From: Natranaerobius thermophilus JW/NM-WN-LF
GTDB taxonomy: Bacteria; Bacillota; Natranaerobiia; Natranaerobiales; Natranaerobiaceae
Length of the DNA: 64,000 nucleotides
NCBI RefSeq assembly: GCF_000020005.1
Contig: NC_010718.1
Span: forward strand, 1,555,001-1,619,000
Direction: 5' to 3'
The notes beneath the pieces are model-generated. The model was not told where the DNA came from, searched no databases, and worked only from the letters and a program-made list of their open reading frames with translations. Both the position numbers and the translations under genes were made by a program. Shown here one piece after another: positions 34,946 through 58,227 of this stretch. The first letter of the stretch is position 1. Every line of letters begins with the position of its first letter.

Positions 34946-35030
34946 CTAATCAACCTCCATCAATTAATAATTTAATTATCTAGGTACCCAAATTCCACTT
35001 CAATTCTATCAGATACCTATTCATTTGAGT

Positions 35031-36758
35031 CTACTCAATTAAAATGCAAGGATCTTTTGTAGGAGTGAATATATATGTGTTTCTACGTGCACGAGTACAA
35101 GCGACACGCAAATTTAACCTTGCTTTATCAACATTGTTTCTATGTCTAACTAGCCTTTCTTGGTAGAACCCCTCATAGATGATCACCTCATCAAATTCTT
35201 TTCCTTTAGATTTATGTATAGTCATTAAATGTATCCCGTTAATTTCATTTGATGAAGCAATAAAATGTTCTTGTAGTATAAAATCTTGGAATACTCTTCT
35301 AGCACCAACATAACTATTTTTTTCTCGCCATAACTCTACTAATTTTGAAAGCATCTTTGATGTCCTGTATAAAAGTTTTAAATTAGAAGCATCAATTATT
35401 AGATCTTTAAATACTTTTGATTCTGATTGCTTTAATATCTCAGTAACAAAATGCCAGTCACTTATAGGATCCCCTGTAAGTTCAATATTTTTGCTATCTT
35501 TTATTATTCTGCTAATATCCGCAATAAGTATTTTACGGTTTTTTCCTCTTATTTTTTCTGATTCTAAATAATTTTCAAGTGCACTTACTAATTTAAGTTC
35601 ATCTTGAGTGGGGGATTTGTCCCCTTTTCTTCCACGGAAGTATTTTACAAGATCTGAAATTATATCGTCTTCATTAACAGATTGGAGAGATATATTTTCG
35701 ATTATTCCTAATATTAATTCTGCTGCAAGTAGTGTACCTTCTTTACTGACAGCAACATGGTGTTTGAGTCCTGGAAGTTTGTTGCCACTTTTAAAAGATT
35801 GCCAACTACCAAGGTAGTTTGATACATCAGCCATTAAGTTGTTTGTCGGTACCAAAATGGCTAACGACCAATTTTTTTTATGTTTTCTTAATTTATCTCT
35901 AACTTTAAGTGTTTGATACTTTAGTTTTGAATGTCTCCCTTTACCCTTTTTAAAATCATATTTTATTATTTTTACGTTTCTATAATTTTTGCTTTTATTT
36001 GCTCCAGATAGTAAATCATTCCCAAACTGAATTAGATCGGTACCATTACTTCTATTATTTATACTAGCAAAGTCAAACTGAAAAGGCTCAAATTCCTTAA
36101 TATAATCGCTAATTCTTGCAGGGTCAGCCCCTCTAAATTCATATATTCTTTGATCTGGATCGGCAAGTGCAACCAATGTACTTCTTTTCCCTAAAATGTT
36201 AATTAATCTCCATTCGTCATAACTTGTATCTTGAAATTCATCGAGAATAATGTATGGGTATGAACTAGATATAACATTTAATAGCTTATCACTTCTGCTT
36301 AGCAATTCATAACACAGTTCAGCAAATAAATCAAAATCCACTACGCCTTCTTCTTTAAAAAGTTTTATTTTTTCTTTCCTACGCCTTTTTCCATCTCTTA
36401 TGGTAGAAAACCTTGAACAAGCTTCTTGAGGAGGTAGAATTTTAAGAGGGCTTATTGAATTGAGTAAGTAACCGTGACTCCTTAAAATATTCCATGCAAA
36501 TCCGTGATAAGTATTTACTTCGATACTTTTATTAATAAGATCTGATTCATATAAACCTGCCTGTTCCTCTACCCTAGCTATTGTAGCTCTAGCAAAGCTT
36601 AAAAACAAAATTTTTTGTTCATTTTTTAAGTGTTCATTTTTGATTAAATTCTTTGCTTTTATTAATGAAGTTGTGGTTTTTCCTGAACCAGGTCCACCTA
36701 GAACTAAACAGTTTCCTTCAGCTTTCAAGAATTCTTGTTGTTGCTTTGAGAATTCCAC
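35031..36758 (-). CDS. gajB: UvrD-like helicase, GajB-like
   Basis: Superfamily 1 helicase of 575 residues. Motif I GGPGSGKTTT near residue 18, Ia LSFARATI, motif II ILDEFQDTS near 172, motif III LADPDQRIYEFRGA, motif V MTIHKSKGKEFDEVII near 512 and motif VI RVACTRARRNTY near 550. GTG start with AAAGGAAGAGG upstream. It follows an OLD-type nuclease gene by 34 bases, the layout of the Gabija defence pair. GajB of Bacillus is shorter (about 494 residues, from memory). A lone UvrD helicase is the alternative, but gene order argues for the pair. Confidence 0.8.
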   Translation of the reverse strand: MEFSKQQQEFLKAEGNCLVLGGPGSGKTTTSLIKAKNLIKNEHLKNEQKILFLSFARATIARVEEQAGLYESDLINKSIEVNTYHGFAWNILRSHGYLLNSISPLKILPPQEACSRFSTIRDGKRRRKEKIKLFKEEGVVDFDLFAELCYELLSRSDKLLNVISSSYPYIILDEFQDTSYDEWRLINILGKRSTLVALADPDQRIYEFRGADPARISDYIKEFEPFQFDFASINNRSNGTDLIQFGNDLLSGANKSKNYRNVKIIKYDFKKGKGRHSKLKYQTLKVRDKLRKHKKNWSLAILVPTNNLMADVSNYLGSWQSFKSGNKLPGLKHHVAVSKEGTLLAAELILGIIENISLQSVNEDDIISDLVKYFRGRKGDKSPTQDELKLVSALENYLESEKIRGKNRKILIADISRIIKDSKNIELTGDPISDWHFVTEILKQSESKVFKDLIIDASNLKLLYRTSKMLSKLVELWREKNSYVGARRVFQDFILQEHFIASSNEINGIHLMTIHKSKGKEFDEVIIYEGFYQERLVRHRNNVDKARLNLRVACTRARRNTYIFTPTKDPCILIE

Positions 36759-36792
36759 AGTAACCTCTTCCTTTCAAATATTAAGTTACGGA

Positions 36793-38544
36793 CTAACTTT
36801 CACCTTCAACAAACTCTCGTATCTTATTTAAAACGCTAATTATATAGTTAGGAATTTCATCTTTGCTACATGTTCCAAGAAAATCCGCAATACTACCTGA
36901 ACCTTTTGCCCACTTGAAATATTCAAATAAGGACTTTTGTATTTCTTCAGAAGTCATCGCTTCATTTGGCTTTAAATTGTTAAGGTGTGGTGGCCACTCT
37001 TCTTCAACTATCATAAAAGCATATCTTTTTAATGCATCTTCGTCAGAGTGTTTTAAGACAATATTCTCGAACCCATCTTCTTCTGACACAAGTGGTAAAT
37101 CGACATTCTCAGAAATAGCTTGTCTATTTTCATCAGATTGTTTATCACATATAGCAAATACTTGCTTATTCAGGTTTTTAAAGTGTTCAGCTAGTTGAGC
37201 AATGTAGGAGTCACCTTTAGCATTTATCACTGAAATACCTAACTCCTCAAAAGTTTTAAACTCGTCTGGTGATAATTGTTGTAACCTTCTTGCAACTGTA
37301 GGCAGAGCATCGTATTCTGTTTTACCTTCAACAATTAGAACTCGGCGAGATAGCAAAGATTCACAAAACCTTCTTCTAAACTCATCACGATATAGTTTAG
37401 GTTTCACTCTTGGTGGATAGGTAGCTTCTTTCCCAGTAATAATCCCATCAGATTTACTAAGAACTAATATTTGGCTTGGATCGAATTCTTCTAAGACATA
37501 TGGAGAATGTGAAGTGAAAATTGCTTGATCAGATTTGGAACAGATGCTATGGATTATACGTTTCTGTGTATGAGGGGGTATGGCTATTTCTGGTTCTTCC
37601 ATAGCAAAAATAACATTTTGCTGTTGTTTTAGTTCCGCAATCATTGATAATAAAGTTAGAACCATGGTATTAATAGTACCTGTCCCTTGATATTTAAAAG
37701 GGGCTGAATGTTCAGATCCATCTGATCTTGTAGCTCCAGTACCCATAAAAAAAGTGATTATTTTCTTTAAGTTTTGCCGAGTTAAACCTGAAACTTTCAT
37801 TTGAGGATTATTAGCCCATTCATTGGGGACAAAGGAGTGAATAGAGCTTTCAATTTCCCTTAGAATTTGATTGATTTCAGAATCAGGAGCGGCTATTTTT
37901 AGTTGATCAAGCTGTTTTAAAATTTCTTCCCAAATAGGTAGCTTTAATTCTTGTAAACGTAAAATGATGTCAAGAAGCGAACCGTTTTCTAAACTTAATG
38001 CTCTTGAGCCTGTCCTTAAAGTTCTTAAAAACAAAAAACCACAGTATCGCTTATCTTTTTTTGTGAAGGATGTCATGCTTCCATCTTCAACTTCAGGTGA
38101 GGCATAATAAGTACGGCCAAAAAAATCATCTTCTTCTGAATCATAATTTCCTTCAAATCTAACTCTTAATGCAGGTTGTACAGATTCTTTATCAGTTTTT
38201 TCGGGTGGAGGTTCGTTTATAAGTGCTTGTTCATCTTGGTCCCACCACTCTATATTATTTCTAAAGTAACGTGATTGCTCTTCGTTAAGATTTATAATTA
38301 CTACTTCAATTTCTATATTTATGGGATTATTATCATTATCTAGATATTCTCCTGCGTAAAAATCATGTTCGTCAATTACTGGGGTTCGGAACAATCTTTC
38401 TGGTCCTAAAGTTAAATCAAGTGCTTCTAAAATTGTAGATTTACCTGAATTGTTATCGCCTACAAAAACTGTATGCTCAGGAAATATTAACTCACTAAAT
38501 TTTATACCTCTAAAATTATTAATTTTAATCTTTGCAACTCTAAT
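36793..38544 (-). CDS. gajA: OLD-family ATPase/TOPRIM nuclease, GajA-like
   Basis: About 583 residues. The N-terminal ABC-type ATPase has KINNFRGIK and GDNNSGKSTIL near residue 30, a Q/signature region, and AMEEPEIAIPP with SHSPYVLEEF near 320-350. The C-terminal TOPRIM domain starts at RVLIVEGKTEYDALP (glutamate) and has AICDKQSD as its D-x-D-like motif, so metal ligands are there. In Gabija, GajA cuts DNA when nucleotide falls during phage growth. The start is probably ATT 38544: AGGAG lies 8 bases upstream, whereas ATG 38568 lies before that ribosome site and GTG 38553 overlaps it. Confidence 0.8.
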   Translation of the reverse strand: MRVAKIKINNFRGIKFSELIFPEHTVFVGDNNSGKSTILEALDLTLGPERLFRTPVIDEHDFYAGEYLDNDNNPINIEIEVVIINLNEEQSRYFRNNIEWWDQDEQALINEPPPEKTDKESVQPALRVRFEGNYDSEEDDFFGRTYYASPEVEDGSMTSFTKKDKRYCGFLFLRTLRTGSRALSLENGSLLDIILRLQELKLPIWEEILKQLDQLKIAAPDSEINQILREIESSIHSFVPNEWANNPQMKVSGLTRQNLKKIITFFMGTGATRSDGSEHSAPFKYQGTGTINTMVLTLLSMIAELKQQQNVIFAMEEPEIAIPPHTQKRIIHSICSKSDQAIFTSHSPYVLEEFDPSQILVLSKSDGIITGKEATYPPRVKPKLYRDEFRRRFCESLLSRRVLIVEGKTEYDALPTVARRLQQLSPDEFKTFEELGISVINAKGDSYIAQLAEHFKNLNKQVFAICDKQSDENRQAISENVDLPLVSEEDGFENIVLKHSDEDALKRYAFMIVEEEWPPHLNNLKPNEAMTSEEIQKSLFEYFKWAKGSGSIADFLGTCSKDEIPNYIISVLNKIREFVEGES

Positions 38545-38611
38545 TTTGATCACTCCTATGTATAACAAAGATAAATGTATATGGAATTAAGCTAGAATTG
38601 ATTTCTAGTGC

Positions 38612-42479: not shown

Positions 42480-43964
42480 TTATAAATTGAGTTTTTCTAT
42501 TTCATCAAGATAATCTTCAGCGTTATACCTATATTCTGCACAACCTTCCAAAATATCTTTTGCTATAGAAAAAATTTTAGATTCATCAGTATTCAAACAA
42601 ACAAAATAAGCAATTCTTGCAAAAATATCGTAATTATGAAATTGACCGAATCCTGTGGCATCAATATAGCCATAATTAATTGTTTGAAGTATATTAATTT
42701 GATCTGTTTTTTCAAATTGAACTATAATGTTACCAAATGAATATAATTTATGTTTGACTAAATAATCACATAGTCTATCACTTCGTACTAATCTTAAAAT
42801 ATAATCACTAACTTGCATATCAAATATACCTTTATGTATTTTATTATCTACTTTTTTCTTATCCAGTTCTCTATTTTGCTCTTTTAATTTCAACTCAATA
42901 TCACTTAATACCTGATCAACTGTTTCATACCTTTTTTCCTTATTCCTACTAGTACATTTCTCAACAACAAAAGTGAATAAATGCTGTGATTTAGATTCAT
43001 CAACACTTGCAGTAAAAACATAATCTATGACTTTTCCTAAAGAGTAAATATCACTTTTTTTATCTAACTTCTTGAAATCACCAATCGCTAATGGATCAAG
43101 AAATATATGATTATTCTTCTCTGTTGAAGATGATTTTAGACTTCTCTCTATTGATTCATCTTTACTCAATCCGAAATCACATAATACGAAGTCATTTCGT
43201 AATTTTAATATATTGCCAAGGTGTAAATCTCTATGAATTATACTATGATTATGAGCGTACTTCATTCCATTTAATACATCATATATAATCTTCATTTTTT
43301 GCTCAAATGGAATATTTATTTCAGTTGTTATATATTCATGTAAATTCATATCAGCTTCTTCCATTAAATAAGAATGGGTTTCTGAGTCGTAACCGTATAC
43401 ATTTAAAACGTAAGGACAGTCATGTAACTTTAACATATTTTCATATTCATATTTCATCCTCTTTTGAAAATCTGGATTTTCTCGATAAAATGGTTTCAAC
43501 TCTTTTCTTAAAATTCCCTCATGAACTTTGATTATAGAACAATAAGAACCTTCATCAACAATGTTATTATATTTCAATGCCAAAAAACCGTTAGAAAAAT
43601 TATTGATCATTATTCTGTTTCTTTTTAAAAATACTAAAGTTTTAGAATTAATAGTTTCTGAAACCTCTGTATTATATGAGGATAAATTAAATATATTTAA
43701 AATATTTTCTATAAGCTTTAATTTTTTATCAGGATTTTTTACTTCTTTAAATTGTTCGGAAAGTAATTTAGTTTCATCGTACTTAAATTTTCCATTACAA
43801 TCAAAAAAATCTTCAATATCAAGGTAATCAATACTTAAGATAGACAGTTCGAAATAAGCATCTAATATTAATCCATTATAATTATAATTGGTTTCTCCAA
43901 CTTTTTTATCCCAAAGATAATTATCAAAATATCTTAACAATTTTATGTATTCAGTATAATTCAT
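42480..43964 (-). CDS. Serine/threonine protein kinase with extra N- and C-terminal domains
   Basis: 494 residues. The kinase core lies at about residues 135-350: a degenerate glycine loop (DEGSYCSIIKV), the lysine in LRKELK, glutamate in YEYENML, catalytic HRDLHLGNIL and an intact DFGLSK. An N-terminal 130-residue helical domain and a C-terminal domain (about 370-494) are not recognised. It is downstream of the PHP-ATPase/small-protein pair by 165 bases on the same strand. It differs from the cassette A kinase (HGDLHPEN, DFS), so the two are not recent duplicates. It may be a stand-alone phage-sensing kinase. Confidence 0.8.
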   Translation of the reverse strand: MNYTEYIKLLRYFDNYLWDKKVGETNYNYNGLILDAYFELSILSIDYLDIEDFFDCNGKFKYDETKLLSEQFKEVKNPDKKLKLIENILNIFNLSSYNTEVSETINSKTLVFLKRNRIMINNFSNGFLALKYNNIVDEGSYCSIIKVHEGILRKELKPFYRENPDFQKRMKYEYENMLKLHDCPYVLNVYGYDSETHSYLMEEADMNLHEYITTEINIPFEQKMKIIYDVLNGMKYAHNHSIIHRDLHLGNILKLRNDFVLCDFGLSKDESIERSLKSSSTEKNNHIFLDPLAIGDFKKLDKKSDIYSLGKVIDYVFTASVDESKSQHLFTFVVEKCTSRNKEKRYETVDQVLSDIELKLKEQNRELDKKKVDNKIHKGIFDMQVSDYILRLVRSDRLCDYLVKHKLYSFGNIIVQFEKTDQINILQTINYGYIDATGFGQFHNYDIFARIAYFVCLNTDESKIFSIAKDILEGCAEYRYNAEDYLDEIEKLNL

Positions 43965-44129: not shown

Positions 44130-44426
44130 TTATTTTGATTCTTCAATCATATCGTAATACTCCATTTCTTCGTAAACATTTTGAAGCTCATCATTTAGAT
44201 GCATTATATATTCATGGCTAATTTGATAATAGAGATTACTTTTTTCTTCTTTTAATTCGAATTTAAAAATCCCCTTTTTTAGTTCCAAGATTAATTGATT
44301 AAAAACATTTTTAATTTCATCTGGTTTATCTTCTGTAAGTGGAATTTCTAAACTTTTGTCTTTTAAATTTAACTGTAGTATGTATTGGTCATCTTCTTCG
44401 ATCAAATTAGCATCATAAACTTCCAT
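44130..44426 (-). CDS. Small acidic partner of the PHP-ATPase
   Basis: 98 residues from ATG 44426, which has AAAGGGGG 7 bases upstream. The first 14 bases overlap the end of the PHP-ATPase gene, so the two are translationally coupled. The protein is acidic, with alternating strands (YILQLNLKDKSLEIPL) and a C-terminal helix (LNDELQNVYEEMEYYD). Not recognised; an inhibitor, immunity or regulatory subunit of the PHP-ATPase is a fair inference from coupling. Confidence 0.7.
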   Translation of the reverse strand: MEVYDANLIEEDDQYILQLNLKDKSLEIPLTEDKPDEIKNVFNQLILELKKGIFKFELKEEKSNLYYQISHEYIMHLNDELQNVYEEMEYYDMIEESK

Positions 44427-46542
44427 AAATTTGCCCCCTTTCACCAAAAGCTTGTCTTCCCCCTTCTAATATATTCATACTTGTTTCTTTCCAGTCGAGC
44501 AAGTCCGAATCATCATTTACATTAACCAAACTATTTGTAAAAGGATTACCAATATAGGTGGTATAATAATTATTTTCATGTATTCTATAAACCGTTCTAT
44601 ATGGAAGAGTCCTTACAGCGATATTTGCATCATGCGTTGCAATAATTATTTTTTTCCCCATTTGTGCTCGTTCTTTAAGCTTAGGAACAATAACATTATT
44701 AATATAGTCATTACCCAAACTTTTTTCAGGTTCATCTAATAAATAAATATCTTTCTCATCAATCAATTCTTTATGTAATAAGAGCATTGAAGATTCTCCT
44801 TTCGATGGTTCATAAGGTTTGTTATTAATTGTAAAGTAGCGATTAAAAAGAATTAAGTCGTCAATATCTCTTATCTCCTCAATTTTAAACAATTCAGAAA
44901 TTATTTCAAATAAATTACTGCTATATAAGTTCTTTTTTATTTCAAAAATGTTCTTTGTAAATTCCTTTTGCGGCGTTTTATTAACATTCCTTAATGGGTT
45001 AAAATTAGCATCAGAAATATTTCCATCTTGCAATATTATTTCTGTTTTACAATACAGTTCTCCCTTTTCTCCTAAATTTCCGACATAAACATTTTGTGGT
45101 TCGGTTCTTTTTTGGATACAATTAACAATCTTATCAACATTTCTTTCAATGTTGATTCTATTACTAGCATATTCTTGAAATCCAGTTTTCATTGGCTTGC
45201 TTGGTGTGCCTGTTTTTTTAGATATTTCATCATTAAAAACTTTAATCAGATCATTAAACATTTCAGTTGCTTTAAAATCAATAAATGTTTCTTCTTTCTT
45301 TTCATTAATTGTTTTAGCTACACGATTCAAAATATCATTTAGTTCATCAAATAATTGTTTTGTTAAAACTTCCTTTAAAATTGTATTTCTTATAAAATTT
45401 AAAAAATTGTTTAGCCTGGTAGAAATATTATTGAACTCAGAAAGTTTTCTTTCTAACAGTTTAGAGTTTTTATAAGAGAAGTCTTTAATAGATATAGTTT
45501 TAGCTCTCTCATTAGTAATTTGATATGAAAAGTAATTAAGATAATTTGACACATTAGTAATATTTTTTTCAGATGCTGATTTTATTTGTTTTATTTCAGA
45601 ATAACAAGTTTCTATATTCAGATCCTCCAATTCAACATCAAAATTATCTCCTTTAATATCAAAAGTTTCTTCTAAATTCTCAGAGCTTGATTCAAAAACA
45701 CGAGTTTTCAAGCCAGTTGAATTATAATAATCTGATATTGCTCGCAATATCTCTGTTTTACCTGTTCCTTTGGAACCAAATAATATATTAATATCATTAA
45801 AGAAATTTAGGGTTATAGGTTCCTCTCTTCCAAAAGGGTATATAGTTATTTCTTCAGGTTTTTTTTGATCTAATAACGTATTAATTGTGGGTTCATCTTT
45901 TTCCAAAAGTAAGCAAAATTGCTCAAAGCTTTCAACGGGTAAACGAAGTTCAGGCAAATCTTTTGATATTTCGATATAATAATTCCAATCATCGATATCT
46001 GATCCATAAATTGATCTATGACCGTGGCTGATATAAATTCCTGCTGATATCGAATTAGTTGCTTCTTTAATAACCCTGTTTTTATTTTTAACATGTGTAT
46101 ATAATTTTTCTATATCATCATCTGTTAAGTTAGGTTTTTTTGCGTAGTAATGAACAATATAGATTGCGTCCATCTGATCAAAATAATGAACAGTATCACT
46201 AATAGATATTGCAAAATCATCCTCTTTTGTGTCTAGTAACAACTCATCAATTTGATTTGATAATAATTGAGCATTATTTGGATTAACAATTACAATCAAA
46301 TGTCCTCTCCTTCCATTTTCTTCTATATCTAACTCTATACCAGGCCATAATTGGCACGTTCCTTTTACTTTATTTACAAATTCATTATATTGTTCAATAT
46401 CAAAATGATTATGATTAGTAATAGCTAATATTTTAACATCTGTTGCTTTTATTATTTCTTCAAAACAAGTGGCATCAATATTTCTTTTATGTGAGTCCCC
46501 ACTCTTTGTTTTTTTAGTATGAGCGTGAATGTCAATTTTCAT
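44413..46542 (-). CDS. PHP-domain/ABC-type ATPase fusion (Ppl- or TrlF-like)
   Basis: 709 residues from ATG 46542 (AAAGGGGTG upstream). The N-terminal PHP phosphoesterase domain has its metal motifs HAH (residues 5-7), ITNHNHFD near 49, PGIELDI near 75 and YIVHYYAKK near 136. The ATPase follows with Walker A FGSKGTGKTEIL near 265, a long coiled-coil-like middle and LLDEPEKSLG with IATHDANIAV near the C-terminus, as in SMC/RecF-like proteins. PHP-ATPase fusions of this plan include the defence protein Ppl and TrlF-type proteins. It would be a nuclease or phosphatase gated by ATP. Partner gene overlaps its end. Confidence 0.75.
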   Translation of the reverse strand: MKIDIHAHTKKTKSGDSHKRNIDATCFEEIIKATDVKILAITNHNHFDIEQYNEFVNKVKGTCQLWPGIELDIEENGRRGHLIVIVNPNNAQLLSNQIDELLLDTKEDDFAISISDTVHYFDQMDAIYIVHYYAKKPNLTDDDIEKLYTHVKNKNRVIKEATNSISAGIYISHGHRSIYGSDIDDWNYYIEISKDLPELRLPVESFEQFCLLLEKDEPTINTLLDQKKPEEITIYPFGREEPITLNFFNDINILFGSKGTGKTEILRAISDYYNSTGLKTRVFESSSENLEETFDIKGDNFDVELEDLNIETCYSEIKQIKSASEKNITNVSNYLNYFSYQITNERAKTISIKDFSYKNSKLLERKLSEFNNISTRLNNFLNFIRNTILKEVLTKQLFDELNDILNRVAKTINEKKEETFIDFKATEMFNDLIKVFNDEISKKTGTPSKPMKTGFQEYASNRINIERNVDKIVNCIQKRTEPQNVYVGNLGEKGELYCKTEIILQDGNISDANFNPLRNVNKTPQKEFTKNIFEIKKNLYSSNLFEIISELFKIEEIRDIDDLILFNRYFTINNKPYEPSKGESSMLLLHKELIDEKDIYLLDEPEKSLGNDYINNVIVPKLKERAQMGKKIIIATHDANIAVRTLPYRTVYRIHENNYYTTYIGNPFTNSLVNVNDDSDLLDWKETSMNILEGGRQAFGERGQIYGSL

Positions 46543-46693
46543 ATAAATCACCCCTTTCATTATAGGCAGACATAAACTTCTTTCATTTTTTCAACTAAAA
46601 GGTTGTCCTAATATTATAAGTTTCAACACAGACAAGATTTGATAAATATTTCTCTGTAAATCAATGCTAGTCCAACGAATACTCGTATTCATT

Positions 46694-48829
46694 TTATAGC
46701 TTAATTTCCTTAATCTTTTTATTTTCTAAAAAAGTCTTAACCCCTTCAATATCTACAAGGTGTGCTATATGCATTTTATCTTGTAAATCTTTAGGTAAAT
46801 ATGGACTGAATTTTGATTTGAACTTTTCTTGCTCTAATGTAAAATCAAGTAAATATTCTGGTCGCCAATCTGTTTCTTTTATATCTTGTAAAACCCCTGG
46901 TAAATCAATACCACCTTCAATGTTAATCCTACCAATTCCATCAATCTCTTTTATATTCACATTATAAGATCGTAAAATCCATGCCAAAGTTTGAAATATT
47001 TTTGTTCCAGTATAGGTTTCAAATAAGATTTCATCACCATTATTCCAAATTACTCGTTCGTTTGGTTTTATATTGTATAACTCAAAAGGTTTTCTCTGTT
47101 CTTCTAAGTGGTTTTGAGCCATATTATCAATAAACTCGAAGTTTTTCCTTTCACACAGTATTTTGTGCATTCTTTCAGGTATTTTGGGATTTAATATAAA
47201 ACCTCCTCCAGAGTATTTAGGAGGTTTTCCGTCAACAGCTTTAGCTACATAAATAATATCACGCTCAATATCGATATTTTTTATAGTCCATAATTGTCCT
47301 GCCAATATAATATTGTCACCTTCAGATACCATTAAACTTTTGTCTATACTTCCAATTTTTCTGATACCTTCCCGCACTTCAAATTCTTCTTGAGTCATAA
47401 AAACAGCATAGAATTCTTTACCCCTCAATAATCTTTCCCCTTCTAGTCCTACAATTAATTCAGCACTATTTCTAATTAACTGCAAAAAGTCGTTTTCTAT
47501 CATGTAATTAATAACATGATTAATATCTTCTTCTTTTAGTTTATAAAAAGCTGCATTTGCTTTGATATTATCTATAAGTGGATCAAGTCTAACTCCATTT
47601 GCTTCGTGGCAAATAGAAATAATTTGATGGAATAAAATATCTAAAGGTAAAGGATATTCCGTTGCTGGCTCAATCCACTTTTCTAATAATAAATCAATTA
47701 CTGCTAAAGATTGAACTAGACTATCATTAGTTGTACTATATACTTGTAAAACCTGATTTGTTCCAAGCTTTCTACCAGATCTACCTAACCTCTGTTTTAA
47801 AGAAGAAACGGTATGCGTATCATCAATTTGAACAACATAATCAATAGCTCCAATATCAATACCTAATTCAAGGGAACTAGTGGTTACTACACTTTTGGGT
47901 GATTTAGAATTGGCCATAGTTTTTTCTACATATTCTCTTTCTTTCTTATCTATAGAAGAGTGATGAGCAAGATAAAGTTCTGTATTAACTTCTCTATTTG
48001 CTAGACGATTTAAATAAAGTGTTGTTTCTTCTACTTCGGCACGGCTATTACAGAAAATTAAGGAATGTACATTCTTAGTTAATTCTCTAAGGTCTTGATA
48101 TAAATCAATAGGTTTCTTATAGTCTTTTCCTTTATCGAAATGCATTAAACTAAGTAATAAATCCTTGTCGTCTTCATTAGAATCTATTATTTCAACATTT
48201 TTAATATCATTATAGTTAATCCATTCTTTTATTAATTTAAAATTGTTTAGAGTTGCTGAAAGTGCGAAGTATCTAGGTTTTTCTTTTATGTAATTCTCTA
48301 ACCGAGAAAGTAAGGAACGTAAATGTACTCCCCTTTCATTATCTAAAAAAGCATGTAATTCATCTATAATGATAAATTCTATATCACTAAGAATGTAATT
48401 TAGCTCATTTGTTCGATTAATAAATAAACTTTCTATTGATTCTGGGGTAATTTGAAGAATCCCAGCAGGATTTTTTGTTAACTGTTTCTTTTTATTTTGG
48501 TTTACATCTCCGTGCCAACGATGAATAGGAATATATGATTTTTCACAAAGTTTAATAATACGCTCAAACTGATCATTAATTAAAGCTTTAAGGGGAGAAA
48601 TATATAGTATTTTTAAATCTTTGGTTGCATCTTTTTCTATTTGGCTCAAAATTGGTAAAAAGACGGCTTCTGTCTTTCCTGATGCAGTTCCAGAAGAAAC
48701 AACAACATCTTTATTAGTGTTCATAACAATAGGTATGGTTTTATCTTGAACAGGAGTGAATTCATCCCAACCCATTTCCCATATTTTCTTTTGCATTCTT
48801 TCAGACAATAAATAAAATGTCTCGCTCAA
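46694..48829 (-). CDS. sngC: Lhr-like DEAD/DEAH helicase, Shango SngC-like
   Basis: Superfamily 2 helicase of 711 residues. Q-motif region FTPVQDKTIPIV, motif I SSGTASGKTEA near 44, motif II IIDELHAF near 150, SATL near 197, and the second RecA domain with TTSSLELGIDIGAIDYVVQ and QRLGRSGRK near 365. The C-terminal 330 residues resemble the winged-helix parts of Lhr/BrxHI helicases. TTG start. It is third in the run TerB protein, ATPase, helicase, which is the gene set of the Shango defence system. BREX BrxHI is the closest alternative, but no other BREX genes are here. Confidence 0.75.
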   Translation of the reverse strand: MSETFYLLSERMQKKIWEMGWDEFTPVQDKTIPIVMNTNKDVVVSSGTASGKTEAVFLPILSQIEKDATKDLKILYISPLKALINDQFERIIKLCEKSYIPIHRWHGDVNQNKKKQLTKNPAGILQITPESIESLFINRTNELNYILSDIEFIIIDELHAFLDNERGVHLRSLLSRLENYIKEKPRYFALSATLNNFKLIKEWINYNDIKNVEIIDSNEDDKDLLLSLMHFDKGKDYKKPIDLYQDLRELTKNVHSLIFCNSRAEVEETTLYLNRLANREVNTELYLAHHSSIDKKEREYVEKTMANSKSPKSVVTTSSLELGIDIGAIDYVVQIDDTHTVSSLKQRLGRSGRKLGTNQVLQVYSTTNDSLVQSLAVIDLLLEKWIEPATEYPLPLDILFHQIISICHEANGVRLDPLIDNIKANAAFYKLKEEDINHVINYMIENDFLQLIRNSAELIVGLEGERLLRGKEFYAVFMTQEEFEVREGIRKIGSIDKSLMVSEGDNIILAGQLWTIKNIDIERDIIYVAKAVDGKPPKYSGGGFILNPKIPERMHKILCERKNFEFIDNMAQNHLEEQRKPFELYNIKPNERVIWNNGDEILFETYTGTKIFQTLAWILRSYNVNIKEIDGIGRINIEGGIDLPGVLQDIKETDWRPEYLLDFTLEQEKFKSKFSPYLPKDLQDKMHIAHLVDIEGVKTFLENKKIKEIKL

Positions 48830-48840
48830 GCCTTAACCTC

Positions 48841-50172
48841 CTAATAGCTTTCTTTTTTAAAACGGTTATTCAAATCAGTAGTTTGATTAGTCATTGAAGT
48901 TTCTTGAGAAGTTTCCATATTAATTTCGCCAAATAGTTTAGCCCTATCTATGTTTGGATTTTCATATAAAATATTTAACCTGCTAATAAATCCTTTGATA
49001 ATATCACCTATAATCACATATTTTTCTGCACCTGGCATTTCGTAATATTTATTTAGATAATTCTTGATTTCTTCATCTGAAACTATGGGATTGTATTTGT
49101 AATGTGCTGCATGAATATCTCTTAAGTTCATTAGTAAAGCTAAAGTTTCATTTGCAGATATAGGTTTCAATTTGATAACTGGTTCTTTCAAATCTTGAAA
49201 TTCTGCATCTTGAAAACCAGGTCTTAATCTTCTTTGCAGAGCTCTATAGCTATATATACCACGCCTCTCATCTTCTAAAAATTCTGGTGTTCCACTGAAT
49301 GTGATATATAAATTTTCTACATCTCCTTGAAATATATCATTATAAATAGTTAAAATCATTTCATAATTCTTATTTCTTGCTAATGAGTGAGTAATTTTAT
49401 ATAGGTTTACTGCTTCATCAAGATTAATAACCAAACCCGAATATCCAATTTGGTTGACAAATTTGGCTATCACCTTTAGATAACCATAATAATTGTCATC
49501 ATTTATTATTTCTCTAATACCTAAGTCATTTTTTGCATCTGTTTTAGTTGTATATTCTCCTCTAATCCAACGTAAAACAGCTCTTTTTTGATCTTGATTT
49601 TTTTCAATAAAACTACGATAGTAAATATTTAATACCCTAGCAAAGTCATAACCTCCTGTTAATTCATCCATGTTGGAAACGATATGTTCTATTTTTGTTT
49701 CAACATCTCTATTAAAATCTTTATTTTCTAAATCTATCTTTTCATAACCTCTAGCTTCAACTACTTGTTCTTGTATATTAAATATCCATTGATCTAAAAT
49801 ATTTGTTAATGCATTTCCTTCTGGAGCACTTTTAGTTGATAAATTTTTCATCAATTCATTATATAAAGCAAGAGCTTGACCATCGTTTCCATATAAGCGA
49901 CGATCAGGACTGAAATCGGCTTGTGCTACTACAAAGTTTTCCTTTAAGCCTACTTGTTTAATATAAGCTTGCATAAAACTTTTACCAGTTCCAAAATCAC
50001 CTATAAAAAATTTAATCAATGAGTTTCCATTACTTACTTCATCTAAATCAAGTTCTATTTGTTTCATTTCCTTTTCTCTTCCGATAATAATATACTGTAA
50101 TCCTCTATTTGGAACTACTCCTGCAGATAGAGATTTTAATATAGCTGTGGAGTCTCTTTTTCTGATTTTCAC
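48841..50172 (-). CDS. sngB: DUF2791/BrxD-like P-loop ATPase, Shango SngB-like
   Basis: 443 residues. Typical opening SLSAGVVPNRGLQYIIIGREKE, Walker A GDFGTGKSFMQAY near residue 58, Walker B LVINLDEAVNLYK near 248 and sensor FSGTPEFLED near 295 are those of the BrxD/DUF2791 ATPases. The start is GTG 50172, sharing its G with the stop TAG of the TerB gene, so the two are coupled. It ends 11 bases before the helicase gene. A DUF2791 ATPase with an Lhr helicase and a TerB protein is what defines Shango, as far as I know. Confidence 0.78.
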   Translation of the reverse strand: MKIRKRDSTAILKSLSAGVVPNRGLQYIIIGREKEMKQIELDLDEVSNGNSLIKFFIGDFGTGKSFMQAYIKQVGLKENFVVAQADFSPDRRLYGNDGQALALYNELMKNLSTKSAPEGNALTNILDQWIFNIQEQVVEARGYEKIDLENKDFNRDVETKIEHIVSNMDELTGGYDFARVLNIYYRSFIEKNQDQKRAVLRWIRGEYTTKTDAKNDLGIREIINDDNYYGYLKVIAKFVNQIGYSGLVINLDEAVNLYKITHSLARNKNYEMILTIYNDIFQGDVENLYITFSGTPEFLEDERRGIYSYRALQRRLRPGFQDAEFQDLKEPVIKLKPISANETLALLMNLRDIHAAHYKYNPIVSDEEIKNYLNKYYEMPGAEKYVIIGDIIKGFISRLNILYENPNIDRAKLFGEINMETSQETSMTNQTTDLNNRFKKESY

Positions 50173-52121
50173 TATTCTTCCTCCTCTTTGAGAGTTTCTA
50201 CTAACTCTTCAAAATCTTCGTTAATTATAAAATGCTCTCCTCTTTGCTCAAGAATCACATCTCCTAGTATTTCATCTGATTTTTCGTTTAGTTTTGAAAT
50301 AAACACTCCAGTAGTAACACCTATATCCCTTAAAAAATTATTAACTTCTTCTATGATCAGCTGTCCATCCTCAAATAATCTTTTTAATAGTAGTCTTTCA
50401 TTTTCTGTAAGCTCACTAATGAACTTTTTTAAATCCAGGTCCTCTTCAAATATTTCAGGTTCTTCAAAAATATCTTTCTTGTTCTTACCTTCTTTATCTT
50501 CTGTTGATTCCTCTATTGCATCAACTTCATCTTCTACATTTTCTTGGAATTGGTTAATAAAACTTTCGTGATTTAATTTTATCTCCTTTGCTTCATTTTC
50601 ATCTAGTTGAATTTTTTCTCTATTAGTAGATTTATGAAGCTCCGTACTATGTTCGTTATTTTTTGGTATTTCGCTACCATAATTTTCGGATTTCTCTTTT
50701 TCTTTCTTAGCATGTTTAAAACGACTAGGTACTTCATTTTCTTCCTCTTTAACTTTGTTTATGTCTTCCTTTGATAGATGATCTAATAGTCTGTTTTTAA
50801 AGCCTTCTGGAAGTACTTGCTCTTCTACTTTAATTTGCCTCTTTTCGCCACTTAGCTTCCTAGCAACGTTTTCAGATAATCTGAATAGAGCTGTTATTTC
50901 ATTAAATAAATATTGTGTAGGAACCATTTCCTTATATTCAACATCATATTGATAAACTCTCCTTCTTACTACAGCACTATTGAATAAATAACGTTTTTCT
51001 TGCCATACTTTTTCCTCAAACCACGCTTCTTCTAAATCTTGACCTTCTTCTTTGTTTTCTTCTTGAAATAATTTTAGAGCTTTTTTGAAAGTTGTATATA
51101 CTTTCTTCTTGTTATTTTTAAAGAATTTAGTTTCATTGTATCTTTGTATTATTGAGTTCCATTGGTTCATTGAAATTTTACTAATATCGTCTTTATGCTT
51201 TTTGAATGTTTTGTAAAATTTTTCATAAGGGTTTCGGCTTCTTCTGGTATATGTCCCCCAACTTTGAGCTAATTCTTTTTCATCCAGCTCTATTAACATA
51301 TCATGAATCCAAGTAGGTAAATAATTATTTATCTTTGGTACTCTATCTTTATATGCTTCATACAATTGAACCATCATGCTAACATTAAATGCAGCATTTA
51401 AATTGAAAGTGTAATTGATCAGTTCATAAGTAAACAAAATTATATAGCTCAAATCAGTGTCTAGGAAATTACCTTTTACAACCTGTTCACGCCAGTAAAA
51501 ATACCACTGTTTTTGATTTTCATCTAAAGACTCAAATGTAGTCCAATATTTATATAAAGGCACAAATTCTGTCTCAAACCCAGGAGTTGATTTATATTTT
51601 AGTGAGTCTTTAACAAATTTTTCATCGCCTAAACCTTCTATTCTGACTGTTACCCTAATCTCATTATCCTGACTATGGTTGTCACCTTGTTTGTCTTTTG
51701 AAAGGCGTTCAATTTCATTTTTAATAAAATCTGGTGTTTCCAAATCTGCATACTCAGGCAAGATTATATCCTCTTCATTATAGGTTAATTTATTATCAGA
51801 CTTCTTTGGTTTGTTCTGGGGGACAGTTTCAATTTGCATTTTTTCTTTAGTTAAAGGATTTTTATGTTGAGCTTTTTGCGGAGTACTATAATCAACTTTT
51901 TGTGTTTGTGAATGAGTTTTAATAATGGCATTTATCTTTTTCAGTAATTTATATAGACCAAAGCCTATTATAGCAAAAAAAATAGATATAATAATTTCTC
52001 CATCAATCAAGCCAAACAAGACGAAGAGTCCGACAGATATCATCAATAAATATATTGTTATTTTTACAGGGTATTTCAATAATTTTGTCCACACGTCATT
52101 TACCCCCTCAAAAGTTAACAA
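50172..52121 (-). CDS. sngA: TerB-domain membrane protein, Shango SngA-like
   Basis: 649 residues. Two close transmembrane helices (about residues 20-38 and 43-60) anchor the protein; a charged region follows, then a TerB-N type domain (about 185-400: GFETEFVPLYKYWTTFESLDENQKQWYFYWR starts it and has the conserved W and Y) and, after a highly charged linker (about 470-560), a C-terminal TerB-C-like domain (LTENERLLLKRLFED). ATG near AGGGGG. It opens the three-gene Shango-like unit, so membrane anchoring may place the sensor at the envelope. A further gene upstream (52229) has been broken by an IS. Confidence 0.75.
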   Translation of the reverse strand: MLTFEGVNDVWTKLLKYPVKITIYLLMISVGLFVLFGLIDGEIIISIFFAIIGFGLYKLLKKINAIIKTHSQTQKVDYSTPQKAQHKNPLTKEKMQIETVPQNKPKKSDNKLTYNEEDIILPEYADLETPDFIKNEIERLSKDKQGDNHSQDNEIRVTVRIEGLGDEKFVKDSLKYKSTPGFETEFVPLYKYWTTFESLDENQKQWYFYWREQVVKGNFLDTDLSYIILFTYELINYTFNLNAAFNVSMMVQLYEAYKDRVPKINNYLPTWIHDMLIELDEKELAQSWGTYTRRSRNPYEKFYKTFKKHKDDISKISMNQWNSIIQRYNETKFFKNNKKKVYTTFKKALKLFQEENKEEGQDLEEAWFEEKVWQEKRYLFNSAVVRRRVYQYDVEYKEMVPTQYLFNEITALFRLSENVARKLSGEKRQIKVEEQVLPEGFKNRLLDHLSKEDINKVKEEENEVPSRFKHAKKEKEKSENYGSEIPKNNEHSTELHKSTNREKIQLDENEAKEIKLNHESFINQFQENVEDEVDAIEESTEDKEGKNKKDIFEEPEIFEEDLDLKKFISELTENERLLLKRLFEDGQLIIEEVNNFLRDIGVTTGVFISKLNEKSDEILGDVILEQRGEHFIINEDFEELVETLKEEEE

Positions 52122-52228
52122 ATATGATCTTAAAGTTATGATTTTAATATTTTTTCTCTATTCACTTTAAATGTAAAAAAAAGTAACTATAAACATATCA
52201 TTACAACAATTTTAAAAGAGGAATAATT

Positions 52229-53371
52229 TTATCTATCCATGGTGTTAGTTTTGATTTTATAGGACGCTAAATGCTTATATATATGATATATTCCATCTAG
52301 AACATGAAAAAAATCATTATACCAGTTTTCCATTTCTTCAAAGTTTAATTTGATATTATAATCTTCAGTTTGATTATCCATTTCAGTTGGTAGAAGATTT
52401 GTATAAATAACTTCAATCCCATTAAATATTTCTTGTAATTCTGCATTTTCTTTAATATTATTTTCTGAAAAATCTAGAGAATTTAGTAAATAAGAACAAT
52501 AATCTATACATAATTGTACTCTTTTATTAATTAAATCGGTGGCTGAATTAATATATTCTTGAGTAATATTTAAACCTACTGTATCTTCTTTGTTTTGTAT
52601 TAATTCTTCAAGGTATTTAAATTGTATAACATGAGAAATGTAATTGTAACATTCACTTAACTTGAACATTATTTTTTCAGTATAATTTAGGTCAGGGATA
52701 GAAGTTGTCCATTTTTCTAAATTCAGCTTTTTAATTAAGCTATCTTCAAGATAAACTGGCATCATTAAATCTAGGAAAGATAATTTATTGTTATTATTAC
52801 CTTCTAACACTCTGTATAATGGGAATGAATACATAACTGAATTCAAAATTTTACCACATTCTAATATAATAACATTAATTTTTGTGTAATTTTGTTCTAA
52901 ATATAGCTTTTTAAAGTCAAATTGTTCTTCTATTTTAAAAGCGTTTTGTAAAGCATTGAATATATCTTTTAATATTTTTTCTTCATTTAAAAATATATTT
53001 TTATAATCTACGATTAATATATTGTTAAGCCCATTCTGATTTTTAACAAGATTTGTTTCTAAATCTCTATTTTTTAGTTCATTAACTAAACTACTATGAA
53101 GTCTTTTCTCAATATTTCTCATTTCTTTATATACACTATTTTCTATCTTTTGATATGGCTTGAATTTGTCATTAGCAAATTTTTTCCATAAAAGCGAAGT
53201 TAAATGATAAAATCTCCTTTCTTCTTTTTCTAAACGATTTAATTCATCTTCACTAACATAATTCATGAAATGTTTTCTAAATTCATTTTGTAATTTTGGT
53301 AGTAGTATTAAGGCATCATATAAGCATTGTATAGACCTATAAATATCATTAGAGGAATAATATATGTTCTT
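52229..53371 (-). pseudogene. Unknown protein, C-terminal part, cut by IS copy 2
   Basis: An ATG at 53266 gives 345 residues, but the frame is open another 35 codons up to the IS boundary (reading KNIYYSSNDIYRSIQCLYDALILLPKL), so the gene once began beyond the IS. The 41-residue frame at 54634-54759 on the other side is the probable N-terminus: both sides share AAAGAA at the junction and the frames join there. No ribosome site precedes ATG 53266. The protein is helical, with no motif I recognise. It lies 107 bases before the Shango-like sngA on the same strand. Confidence 0.65.
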
Positions 53372-53413
53372 TTTGGACTTAGGTCAAAATTTTGGACACC
53401 AAAAAGTTAAGTA

Positions 53414-54295
53414 TTAAGCAGATTGCTTTGCTAGATCCTCAACATGTTGAGGAGTTAAAAACTCCAAACTTCCATGGATTCTTGTTCTGTTGTACCAGCT
53501 CTCAATGAACCTAAATAGAGCAATTTCAGCCGATTTGAAGTCTAAGTACTTAACATGGTTAACTTCTTCCTTTTTCAAAGTAGCATGAAATGATTCGATA
53601 TGTGCATTGTCATAAGGGCAGCCTTTTCTGCTAAATGATTGCTTGATCCCTTTGTACCTTAAAAAACGCTTAAAGTCATCGCTAGTGTACTGGGTACCTA
53701 GATCACTATGTAGAATAAGTCCATTGCCAGGTTTCTGTGTATCATAAGCATTTTTAACAGCTTTAATAACTAAATCTGTTGTCATGGTCTTGCTAAAAGA
53801 GTATCCAACAATTTTATGGGTGTGTAAATCCATTACAGAGGCTAAGTAGCACCAGCCGTCTTTAACAGTATCAATGTATGTAATATCAGTAACCCACTTT
53901 TGATTGACAAATGTAGTTGAAAAGTCTTGTTTTAGGAGATTCTCTCGTTCGACTACTTTTTCTCTACTAGGATAAGGCCGATATTTTTTCCTGACAATTG
54001 ATTTGATACCCTCTTTTCTCATTAATCGTTGGACTCTTTTTAAGCTGACTTTGTATCCTTTATTGATTAGCACAGCGTGGATCTTTGGTGCACCATATCG
54101 CTTTTTACTGTTTTTATGAATTTGAGTTATTTGATCTAATAGTTCTCTGTTTTCTTTGTCACGATTAGATTCAACTCGATTTATTGTTTCGTAATAAGTA
54201 CTTCTCGGAAAGTCTAGAGCATCACAAATAGCTTTGATAGTATGCTCGTCCTTTTGTTCTTTTATAAATTCAGTAAGCTCTGTATTGTCTACTTT
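53414..54295 (-). CDS. IS3-family transposase OrfB (copy 2)
   Basis: About 293 codons entered by a -1 shift from orfA at AAAAAG (54297-54292). After HTH_21 (KAICDALDFPRSTYYE to KKRYGAPKIHAVL) comes the rve/DDE integrase core: D in WVTDITYID, D in LHSDLGTQY and E in HIESFHATLKKEE, all present. The first ATG, 54073, would give only 219 residues and lose the N-terminal HTH. The enzyme cuts and joins the IS ends through a circular intermediate. Confidence 0.92.
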   Translation of the reverse strand, partial: KVDNTELTEFIKEQKDEHTIKAICDALDFPRSTYYETINRVESNRDKENRELLDQITQIHKNSKKRYGAPKIHAVLINKGYKVSLKRVQRLMRKEGIKSIVRKKYRPYPSREKVVERENLLKQDFSTTFVNQKWVTDITYIDTVKDGWCYLASVMDLHTHKIVGYSFSKTMTTDLVIKAVKNAYDTQKPGNGLILHSDLGTQYTSDDFKRFLRYKGIKQSFSRKGCPYDNAHIESFHATLKKEEVNHVKYLDFKSAEIALFRFIESWYNRTRIHGSLEFLTPQHVEDLAKQSA

Positions 54296-54567
54296 TTGGC
54301 GAATATGGTCATAGCCTTTTTTAAGATTTCATTCTCCTCTTTCAAGCGAGCCATTTCTTTTTGCATTTCTTCCACATCTTTTGAAGTGGCTCCCTCACTG
54401 CCAGATTGTTGGTTTGGAGAGAAATCTTTGATCCATTTATAAATAGTAACCTCTGTCACACCATATTCGCTAGACAAATCCTTCACAGAACTACCTGAAT
54501 TATATAAATCTACAATTGTTCTTTTGAAGTCTTCATTATATCTCTTATTACTCATTACTGGACACAT
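54289..54567 (-). CDS. IS3-family transposase OrfA (copy 2)
   Basis: 92 residues, HTH_Tnp_1 plus coiled coil, identical to OrfA of copy 3. It ends in GCC-AAA-AAG-TAG, whose A5G run is the slip site for OrfAB. Confidence 0.92.
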   Translation of the reverse strand: MCPVMSNKRYNEDFKRTIVDLYNSGSSVKDLSSEYGVTEVTIYKWIKDFSPNQQSGSEGATSKDVEEMQKEMARLKEENEILKKAMTIFAKK

Positions 54568-54633
54568 CCTTTCGTTATTAATATTGTAAGTGACTTAACC
54601 ATGATGTGTCCAAGAATTTATACTAACACCACC

Positions 54634-54759: not shown

Positions 54760-54805
54760 AAACTATGGACTTAGGTCAAAATTTTGGACACCAAAAAGTT
54801 AAGTA

Positions 54806-55687
54806 TTAAGCAGATTGCTTTGCTAGATCCTCAACATGTTGAGGAGTTAAAAACTCCAAACTTCCATGGATTCTTGTTCTGTTGTACCAGCTCTCAATGA
54901 ACCTAAATAGAGCAATTTCAGCCGATTTGAAGTCTAAGTACTTAACATGGTTAACTTCTTCCTTTTTCAAAGTAGCATGAAATGATTCGATATGTGCATT
55001 GTCATAAGGGCAGCCTTTTCTGCTAAATGATTGCTTGATCCCTTTGTACCTTAAAAAACGCTTAAAGTCATCGCTAGTGTACTGGGTACCTAGATCACTA
55101 TGTAGAATAAGTCCATTGCCAGGTTTCTGTGTATCATAAGCATTTTTAACAGCTTTAATAACTAAATCTGTTGTCATGGTCTTGCTAAAAGAGTATCCAA
55201 CAATTTTATGGGTGTGTAAATCCATTACAGAGGCTAAGTAGCACCAGCCGTCTTTAACAGTATCAATGTATGTAATATCAGTAACCCACTTTTGATTGAC
55301 AAATGTAGTTGAAAAGTCTTGTTTTAGGAGATTCTCTCGTTCGACTACTTTTTCTCTATTAGGATAAGGCCGATATTTTTTCCTGACAATTGATTTGATA
55401 CCCTCTTTTCTCATTAATCGTTGGACTCTTTTTAAGCTGACTTTGTATCCTTTATTGATTAGCACAGCGTGGATCTTTGGTGCACCATATCGCTTTTTAC
55501 TGTTTTTATGAATTTGAGTTATTTGATCTAATAGTTCTCTGTTTTCTTTGTCACGATTAGATTCAACTCGATTTATTGTTTCGTAATAAGTACTTCTCGG
55601 AAAGTCTAGAGCATCACAAATAGCTTTGATAGTATGCTCGTCCTTTTGTTCTTTTATAAATTCAGTAAGCTCTGTATTGTCTACTTT
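54806..55687 (-). CDS. IS3-family transposase OrfB (copy 3)
   Basis: Same as the copy at 53414 except for single residues (an Asn for Ser in YRPYP(S/N)REK). DDE residues and HTH_21 are complete; expressed by -1 slippage from orfA at 55689-55684. Confidence 0.92.
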   Translation of the reverse strand, partial: KVDNTELTEFIKEQKDEHTIKAICDALDFPRSTYYETINRVESNRDKENRELLDQITQIHKNSKKRYGAPKIHAVLINKGYKVSLKRVQRLMRKEGIKSIVRKKYRPYPNREKVVERENLLKQDFSTTFVNQKWVTDITYIDTVKDGWCYLASVMDLHTHKIVGYSFSKTMTTDLVIKAVKNAYDTQKPGNGLILHSDLGTQYTSDDFKRFLRYKGIKQSFSRKGCPYDNAHIESFHATLKKEEVNHVKYLDFKSAEIALFRFIESWYNRTRIHGSLEFLTPQHVEDLAKQSA

Positions 55688-55959
55688 TTGGCGAATATGG
55701 TCATAGCCTTTTTTAAGATTTCATTCTCCTCTTTCAAGCGAGCCATTTCTTTTTGCATTTCTTCCACATCTTTTGAAGTGGCTCCCTCACTGCCAGATTG
55801 TTGGTTTGGAGAGAAATCTTTGATCCATTTATAAATAGTAACCTCTGTCACACCATATTCGCTAGACAAATCCTTCACAGAACTACCTGAATTATATAAA
55901 TCTACAATTGTTCTTTTGAAGTCTTCATTATATCTCTTATTACTCATTACTGGACACAT
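55681..55959 (-). CDS. IS3-family transposase OrfA (copy 3)
   Basis: 92 residues, identical in sequence to OrfA of copy 2, with the same AAAAAG slip site before the stop. Confidence 0.92.
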   Translation of the reverse strand: MCPVMSNKRYNEDFKRTIVDLYNSGSSVKDLSSEYGVTEVTIYKWIKDFSPNQQSGSEGATSKDVEEMQKEMARLKEENEILKKAMTIFAKK

Positions 55960-56293
55960 CCTTTCGTTATTAATATTGTAAGTGACTTAACCATGATGTG
56001 TCCAAGAATTTATACTAACACCACTATTTTCTTCCTTTCTAGCATTTATTGGTTTTTCAAATTAACCATGATTAAAACTATGTTATAACATAAAAAAATT
56101 AATGACTAGCTTTTTTTCATTACTATTGAGTGCATGAAATCACTTTTTAACAAAATTTTGGTATTTATAGACTTCAAAGTAATAGCGTTACTTTTTGCAT
56201 ATGCTAGACTGCATTTATACTTCTGATATAAAAAATAAATGGTAACTAATTTTACTTTATAACACCAAAACTATCGGGGCTATAAGTTTATTC

Positions 56294-57325
56294 TTAACGT
56301 GAATCGTACTGTGAAATATCATTTTTAATAGCTGCACCAACTTCAAAAGAATTGCAGCCATCTTTCCTTTTTATTTTATATTTTTTAATGCATATACGAT
56401 TAAAACGACAGTTCTCGCAACTTTTCCGAGGTTTCTTAACTTTTGTGGTATCTTTCAAACTTTGATCATTTAATGAGTAGTATTCTGGTATATATGAAGC
56501 GAGATATGCCTTCAAGAATGTCAGTGTAGGAAAATTTGTCTCATTATTGATTGTTAAATTAGTTGTATTATATAAAAAGCGATCAAACCAAAAATTAATG
56601 AAATCATTGATATTTATAAAAATTTTATTATTTTCCTCGTATTTTTTAAGGGTTTTTATAAAATCATTATATAAATCATAGTTGATTTCTCTAAATATTT
56701 TATCCATTGAAAAATAATTTAAATCAAAAGATTCTTTTTTTGCAACCTCAATGTCGGACACAGTAATATTCTTTTCTGTTTTATTATATTTAATGTTTGT
56801 ATTCTTTTTGAGTCCTTGTTTATTTTTGTAAAAATCATCTTCTAACTTTCGTAATTCTTTAAATTGACATTTATAATTTTTGGGAAATTTAACGCTTTTT
56901 ACTTGACCTTCATTAACCTCTATTACCAAATGATACTTTTTAGAAATCTTCCATACACTAATATAAAACATAAAAATAACTATTTCTTTTAATATTTTTA
57001 TCCAACTATCATTTAAAAAGCAGGAAGAATCTTTAATTAAATCACAAGAATTATGCCACATGAGAAAATAACCTAGTCGCTTGTATTTTATGTTTTTTTT
57101 AATTCTATTGTGCTCTTCTAACTTCAGATAAGCTTTTTTAACATAAATTCTTTTTCCAAATTCAGCATCAGCACAATAATTGAAATGAAAGCTAATTAGT
57201 TGTCCCTCATGTTCTATAATAACATACAAATTATCCTTAGAAATTTTAGCGTTTATGGGGGACCTTAAGTTAGATTTAGTCATTAATATAGTGCCAATCC
57301 GAATAAATTTATTCAAAGCTCTCAT
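56294..57325 (-). CDS. Unknown protein with C-terminal cysteine cluster
   Basis: 343 residues, Lys/Asn/Ile-rich. The only clear motif is near the C-terminus: CENCRFNRIC followed 11 residues later by DGC, a four-cysteine pattern as in Fe-S or zinc sites. The N-terminal half is strand-rich (LYVIIEHEGQLISFHF). I do not recognise it. The first codon is uncertain because several in-frame starts lie near the N-terminus. It stands alone between IS copy 3 and the PD-(D/E)xK gene. Confidence 0.55.
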   Translation of the reverse strand: MRALNKFIRIGTILMTKSNLRSPINAKISKDNLYVIIEHEGQLISFHFNYCADAEFGKRIYVKKAYLKLEEHNRIKKNIKYKRLGYFLMWHNSCDLIKDSSCFLNDSWIKILKEIVIFMFYISVWKISKKYHLVIEVNEGQVKSVKFPKNYKCQFKELRKLEDDFYKNKQGLKKNTNIKYNKTEKNITVSDIEVAKKESFDLNYFSMDKIFREINYDLYNDFIKTLKKYEENNKIFININDFINFWFDRFLYNTTNLTINNETNFPTLTFLKAYLASYIPEYYSLNDQSLKDTTKVKKPRKSCENCRFNRICIKKYKIKRKDGCNSFEVGAAIKNDISQYDSR

Positions 57326-57492: not shown

Positions 57493-58227
57493 CTACATAT
57501 CATTTGCAAAATACTTCCGATTTAAATACCCCTTTAAATCTTGCCCCACCTTTGATGTTAACTCCTGCCATGTAACAAATTTAGTACGTTTTCTTAAATC
57601 TTCATCTTTACAAGCCTCCCTAACCTCATAAAATTTCCTAATTAAATCTGGTCTTCTTTCATCAACTAAAAGTGTAAATGAAAACTCCTCTTCAAAAGCA
57701 ACCAAAAAATTTCTAATCAACTGATAGGATTCTATCTTACCATTTCTTTTAAGTAGCATGTCTGGATTGAAGACTTCCTGGAAGTTTAGGTAGCCTTTAA
57801 TTACTTGGACTTCTTTATCAGTAAAATTTTCTTCTGTAAGCTTGGCTTCGAATATATGGCTGCCTATTTTCATATCTATTTCTGTAGCTCGTCCATGTTT
57901 TTCGTTGGGAAAACTGGCCTGCCATCCAAACTTTATTTCGTCTGGTTCAATTTCCAACAAATCAGTTAATCCCTTCCACTTGAACACTTCAGGGTAGCAG
58001 AAAATGTTCATTAATAGCGCATCTGAACTGTTTAGGGACTGCATTTCGAGTGTTCCGTCATCAAAATGATTATGCTTCTTTTCTAGTCTTTGTATATACT
58101 CACAATTTTCATCAACACATATTAAATAATTATTTCTATCCTTGTCTAGATATTTAACAGCTTTTGTGCAATGGGGACAGAGGATTATTTGATTATTAGG
58201 AACCTCAACATATCCAGTGTCTTGCAT
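57493..58227 (-). CDS. PD-(D/E)xK nuclease-like protein with N-terminal zinc finger
   Basis: 244 residues. An N-terminal ribbon (CPHC and CVDENC) is followed by GWQASFPNEKHGRATEIDMKIGSHIFEAKLTE, in which EID and EAK match the D-x(n)-E-x-K catalytic pattern of restriction-like nucleases. The second half, YQLIRNFLVAFEEEFSFTLLVDERRPDLIRKF, fits the PGN_0703-type putative restriction enzymes I recall. No methyltransferase gene is adjacent. It is the last gene of cassette B, 105 bases before boundary element 3. Confidence 0.65.
   Translation of the reverse strand: MQDTGYVEVPNNQIILCPHCTKAVKYLDKDRNNYLICVDENCEYIQRLEKKHNHFDDGTLEMQSLNSSDALLMNIFCYPEVFKWKGLTDLLEIEPDEIKFGWQASFPNEKHGRATEIDMKIGSHIFEAKLTEENFTDKEVQVIKGYLNFQEVFNPDMLLKRNGKIESYQLIRNFLVAFEEEFSFTLLVDERRPDLIRKFYEVREACKDEDLRKRTKFVTWQELTSKVGQDLKGYLNRKYFANDM

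Follow-up and report, generated by a model that had tools for sequence, protein, structure and literature searches.

The described system closest to the locus analysed here is Shango (SngABC), with which Millman et al. in 2022 are reportedly also credited. It is a three-gene TerB, ATPase and helicase system that protects Pseudomonas aeruginosa PAO1 from phage (Johnson et al. 2023; PMC10250203). In BREX type 2, the ATPase BrxD is proposed to load the BrxHI helicase (PMC12839542). Avs/AVAST and other nSTAND defence proteins enter the comparison through a neighbouring gene.

The window, meaning the whole stretch of DNA that was analysed, covers 64,000 nucleotides of the Natranaerobius thermophilus JW/NM-WN-LF chromosome (NC_010718.1, positions 1,555,001 to 1,619,000). 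It holds a same-strand trio, a further frame upstream of it and two copies of an insertion sequence (IS):

46694-48829, minus strand: sngC, Lhr-like superfamily 2 helicase (PADLOC and Pfam)
48841-50172, minus strand: sngB, BrxC/BrxD-type ATPase, formerly DUF2791 (PADLOC and Pfam)
50172-52121, minus strand: sngA, TerB_N and TerB_C protein with an N-terminal hydrophobic (membrane) segment (PADLOC and Pfam)
52229-53371, minus strand: 3' remnant (~381 codons) of a nuclease-nSTAND NTPase gene of ~1,400 codons (homology to the L090 protein and family HMM)
53374-54631, minus strand: IS3-type IS, copy 1, 1,258 bp, touching the remnant; flanked by TTT and CCC, no target duplication
54766-56023, minus strand: the same IS, copy 2, with a 3-bp target duplication (CTA) and one mismatch to copy 1

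Judged by its profile matches, gene order and lengths, the trio is an ordinary, intact Shango operon. The initial annotation had proposed a Shango-like operon of overlapping or nearly overlapping genes at this place, and both the spacing and a search with SngA, SngB and SngC models bear it out. sngB overlaps sngA by one base, at the sngA stop, and 11 bases separate sngB from sngC; the probable sngA start is the GTG at 52094, preceded by GAGGGGG. All three proteins match the corresponding PADLOC Shango profile best: SngA at 1.8e-46 over residues 103-645, SngB at 2.5e-160 (532 bits) and SngC at 5.9e-207 (688 bits). Pfam agrees, with TerB_N (6e-40) and TerB_C (6e-31) in SngA, both over the Pfam cut-offs, PF10923 (BrxC_BrxD, 5e-155) in SngB, and DEAD, Helicase_C and WH_Lhr in SngC. 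The genes are full length and, by eye, their P-loop and DExH-type motifs are intact. The A-B-C order on one strand is that of nearly all Shango loci surveyed, and in a SngB tree the Natranaerobius protein falls inside a 14-row Bacillota Shango clade with support of 100/100. Despite its profile match, the Natranaerobius SngA has no Pfam match to PF05099, the central TerB domain; SngA of Pantoea, Azospirillum, Cetobacterium and a haloarchaeon has this domain. PDB searches with the SngA profile and the SngB sequence returned P-loop or chance matches, or none.

The operon sits in a defence island of this Bacillota chromosome. Other genes of the window with matches of this kind, or next to them, are:

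28504-30435: PDC-S49 candidate defence protein (1.6e-63)
33932-34945: PDC-S64 candidate, after Gabija (5.9e-141)
35031-36758: Gabija GajB (1.3e-214)
36793-38568: Gabija GajA (5.5e-260)
42480-43964: Stk2-like serine/threonine kinase (PADLOC Stk2, 1.2e-55)
44413-46560: TrlF/PDC-M49A-like protein (PHP-like N-terminus, ABC-type ATPase), directly downstream of sngC
57493-58227: PF22558 protein, restriction endonuclease associating with ARP (Pfam, 6e-58)

Gabija and the PDC-S64 candidate together span 33932-38568. A 105-codon open reading frame (44130-44447) overlaps the 3' end of the TrlF/PDC-M49A-like gene, which shows no link to Shango at the other surveyed loci, and a 343-aa gene of no named family (56294-57325) adjoins the PF22558 gene.

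The frame upstream of sngA lies 107 bp from it on the same strand. Its 381 codons are open right up to the IS edge at 53374, because the 5' part of the gene is missing. Searches of Pfam, PADLOC, NCBIfam and PHROGs gave nothing credible (a PHROG, at E = 0.04, came closest), and no relative of the frame appeared in genome and viral contigs by a pattern-based scan or in plasmids and phages by tblastn. Among 398 Bacillota genomes, however, it has one clear relative, at 5e-27, in a 1,435-codon open frame (L090). The alignment covers residues 1062-1413 of the 1,426-aa L090 protein at 29% identity over 358 columns, and the match is restricted to the C-terminal quarter of that protein. An HMM of three full-length relatives, built with the remnant left out, matches it at 6.7e-32. 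The missing ~1,030 codons of the parent gene are found nowhere in the Natranaerobius genome (3,191,453 bp, three contigs), so the frame has the C-terminal part of the family and lacks the N-terminal effector and STAND NTPase domains. The C-terminal-only match, the HMM match and the absent codons together mark the frame, on sequence grounds, as the surviving 3' end of a large nuclease-nSTAND gene of Avs-like type and as no component of Shango. A weak match in another genome (L091, E = 4e-5) falls in an iron-sulphur protein and was set aside as a chance similarity; an AlphaFold model of the remnant alone had a mean pLDDT of 36 and was left unused. The initial annotation had described a gene of about 420 codons, of unknown family, broken by an IS. 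A same-strand frame cut by an IS is indeed there; its size and its standing as a gene of its own gave way to the 381-codon end of a ~1,400-codon gene, and its family now has an nSTAND relative.

How was the parent gene broken? The genome carries thirteen full, nearly identical copies of the 1,258-bp IS. Duplications of 3-4 bp flank four copies other than copy 1, namely CTA at copy 2 and AGG, TGA and GTGC at three other sites. Copy 1 has none, and the 5' part of the parent gene was therefore probably lost by deletion between IS copies. Recombination between the two same-direction copies would have removed ~3.1 kb from the 5' end of the nSTAND gene. This most likely course is drawn from one missing target duplication, and an IS-adjacent deletion would leave the same picture. 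A 41-codon open reading frame between the two copies has no relative that could be found.

Taken as a whole, the locus is read with high confidence as an intact Shango operon in a defence island, with an unrelated Avs-like 3' remnant beside it by chance. Could the remnant nevertheless be expressed, as a short C-terminal fragment that has gained a new role, such as that of a decoy or a bound Shango regulator? In favour of this, 345 codons from the ATG at 53266 are still open and free of stops. However, no clear ribosome-binding site precedes this ATG by eye, no collection searched holds a conserved standalone version, and the break may simply be recent, because the IS copies are nearly identical. 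An expressed, functional fragment is thus improbable.

The initial annotation had also suggested that the upstream gene might be an accessory or regulator of Shango, and had proposed a neighbourhood survey for its homologues beside sngA. A true accessory that is only occasionally linked, and happens to be IS-broken here, would fit the shared strand, the 107-bp distance and the setting in a defence island. The survey took in 44 Shango loci, 20 from the 398 Bacillota genomes and 24 found by scanning 84,980 species, with one organism in both sets and one genome contributing a partial locus only; five further loci from plasmids of other phyla brought the total to 49, about 48 of them independent. 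At E values up to 10, the family HMM found the remnant family in none of the six frames of the 49 loci, and zero in about 48 independent loci puts the 95% upper bound on linkage at ~6%. The reverse search gave no SngB match in any of the three Bacillota genomes that carry an intact nuclease-nSTAND relative. Neighbours upstream of sngA also change between loci, and a DUF4209 protein is one of them; in the closest relatives this place is taken by an AbiA end, a sugar epimerase, GmrSD, an IS21 gene or an unknown gene. In an all-versus-all comparison of Shango neighbourhoods, only the trio and a few general families recur beyond related strains. Together with a homology confined to the C-terminal quarter of a protein of ~1,400 residues, these results make an accessory role very improbable, and the plausible lead of a fourth Shango gene can be closed, with no sign of one at the Natranaerobius locus. 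The remnant's position beside Shango, as part of the overall reading given above, is chance proximity within the island.

The survey also brought out two arrangements at other loci. In the closest Shango relative (L046), a truncated AbiA C-terminal part (11297-12265; PADLOC AbiA, 2.5e-102) directly precedes sngA, so that there too a broken defence gene stands in this place. Two further Shango loci (L068:10659-15141 and L070:11558-16080) carry a tandem pair of sngC-like helicase genes.

The probability that the trio matches another system better, as a BREX-like BrxD-BrxHI pair plus a TerB gene, is negligible: the BrxD (1.6e-58, 197 bits) and BrxHI (8e-134, 445 bits) profiles do score significantly, but far below those of SngB and SngC, the SngA profile matches the TerB protein over residues 103-645, and no neighbouring gene scanned has a BREX component as its main match, with BrxC, PglZ, PglX and PglW all absent from the part of the window's open reading frames that was scanned.

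With the trio taken as Shango, its neighbour still points to a family of separate interest. In the L090 protein, P-loop domains of the nSTAND5 and nSTAND3 families score close to their curated Pfam cut-offs. Two more Bacillota genomes carry copies 96-98% identical to it, which suggests recent transfer, and plasmids of Pseudanabaena (32% identity) and Deinococcus (26%) encode homologues of ~1,400 aa that share its layout. A PD-(D/E)XK-like N-terminus is followed by an nSTAND NTPase and then by a long, conserved C-terminus, and the homologues have in common the N-terminal motifs E-G-x-E-D ... Q-V-K and the P-loop GASGQGK. By eye, the invariant N-terminal residues of PD-(D/E)XK type are E58, E61-D62, Q77 and K79. 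The N-terminal domain has no Pfam match, and it is this invariant E-x2-E-D ... Q-x-K pattern that makes it a putative nuclease; the C-terminal part is presumably the sensing part. A PDB profile search with the STAND family gave P-loop or chance matches, or none. Intact genes lie at:

L090:3333-7613: intact ~1,400-aa nuclease-nSTAND gene, no PADLOC model
L098:4992-9185: intact gene of the same family, no PADLOC model
L099:4001-8197: intact gene of the same family, no PADLOC model

That these ~1,400-residue proteins of Bacillota, Pseudanabaena and Deinococcus form an undescribed Avs-like anti-phage family is a tentative proposal, with somewhat less than an even chance of being right. It is a moderate side lead, and intact copies elsewhere make it testable.

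In Shango itself, the N-terminus of SngA deserves attention. Strongly hydrophobic helices stand there in the Natranaerobius protein (peak 2.59 at residue 21), with no TM2 match. An N-terminal hydrophobic segment is found in SngA of 13 of the 14 rows of the Bacillota clade, the fourteenth SngA being cut by a contig end, and in the ten proteins of the clade that were tested this segment is a TM2 domain. Pantoea and Cetobacterium SngA have membrane segments in the same place and SngA of one haloarchaeon has a TM2 domain, whereas the Paenibacillus, Hymenobacter and Azospirillum proteins are without an N-terminal membrane segment. A limited literature text search found no paper mentioning such a segment in SngA. 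Its spread across the Bacillota clade points to the membrane as a possible place of action of Shango. In one possible model, SngA would anchor the SngB-SngC complex there through its N-terminal segment, and the ORC/Cdc6-like ATPase SngB would load the SngC helicase onto invading DNA or activate it there. Helicase loading by SngB is proposed by analogy with BrxD and BrxHI, and membrane holding by SngA would follow from the hydrophobic segment.

Set against the known systems, the remnant's parent family has a nuclease-like N-terminal motif, a STAND NTPase and a long C-terminus in common with Avs/AVAST and other nSTAND defence proteins; unlike these, its intact relative matches no PADLOC Avs model, and the Natranaerobius locus keeps the C-terminal part only. 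SngB and SngC form the same kind of ATPase-helicase pairing as the BrxD-BrxHI dyad of BREX type 2, with detectable homology to it, but here SngA is present, the BREX scores are lower and the other BREX genes are not seen nearby. In comparison with Shango as described, the Natranaerobius locus stands apart in a SngA with an N-terminal hydrophobic segment and without detectable PF05099, whereas the gene order, all three protein families, their full length and the operon-like spacing are those of Shango.
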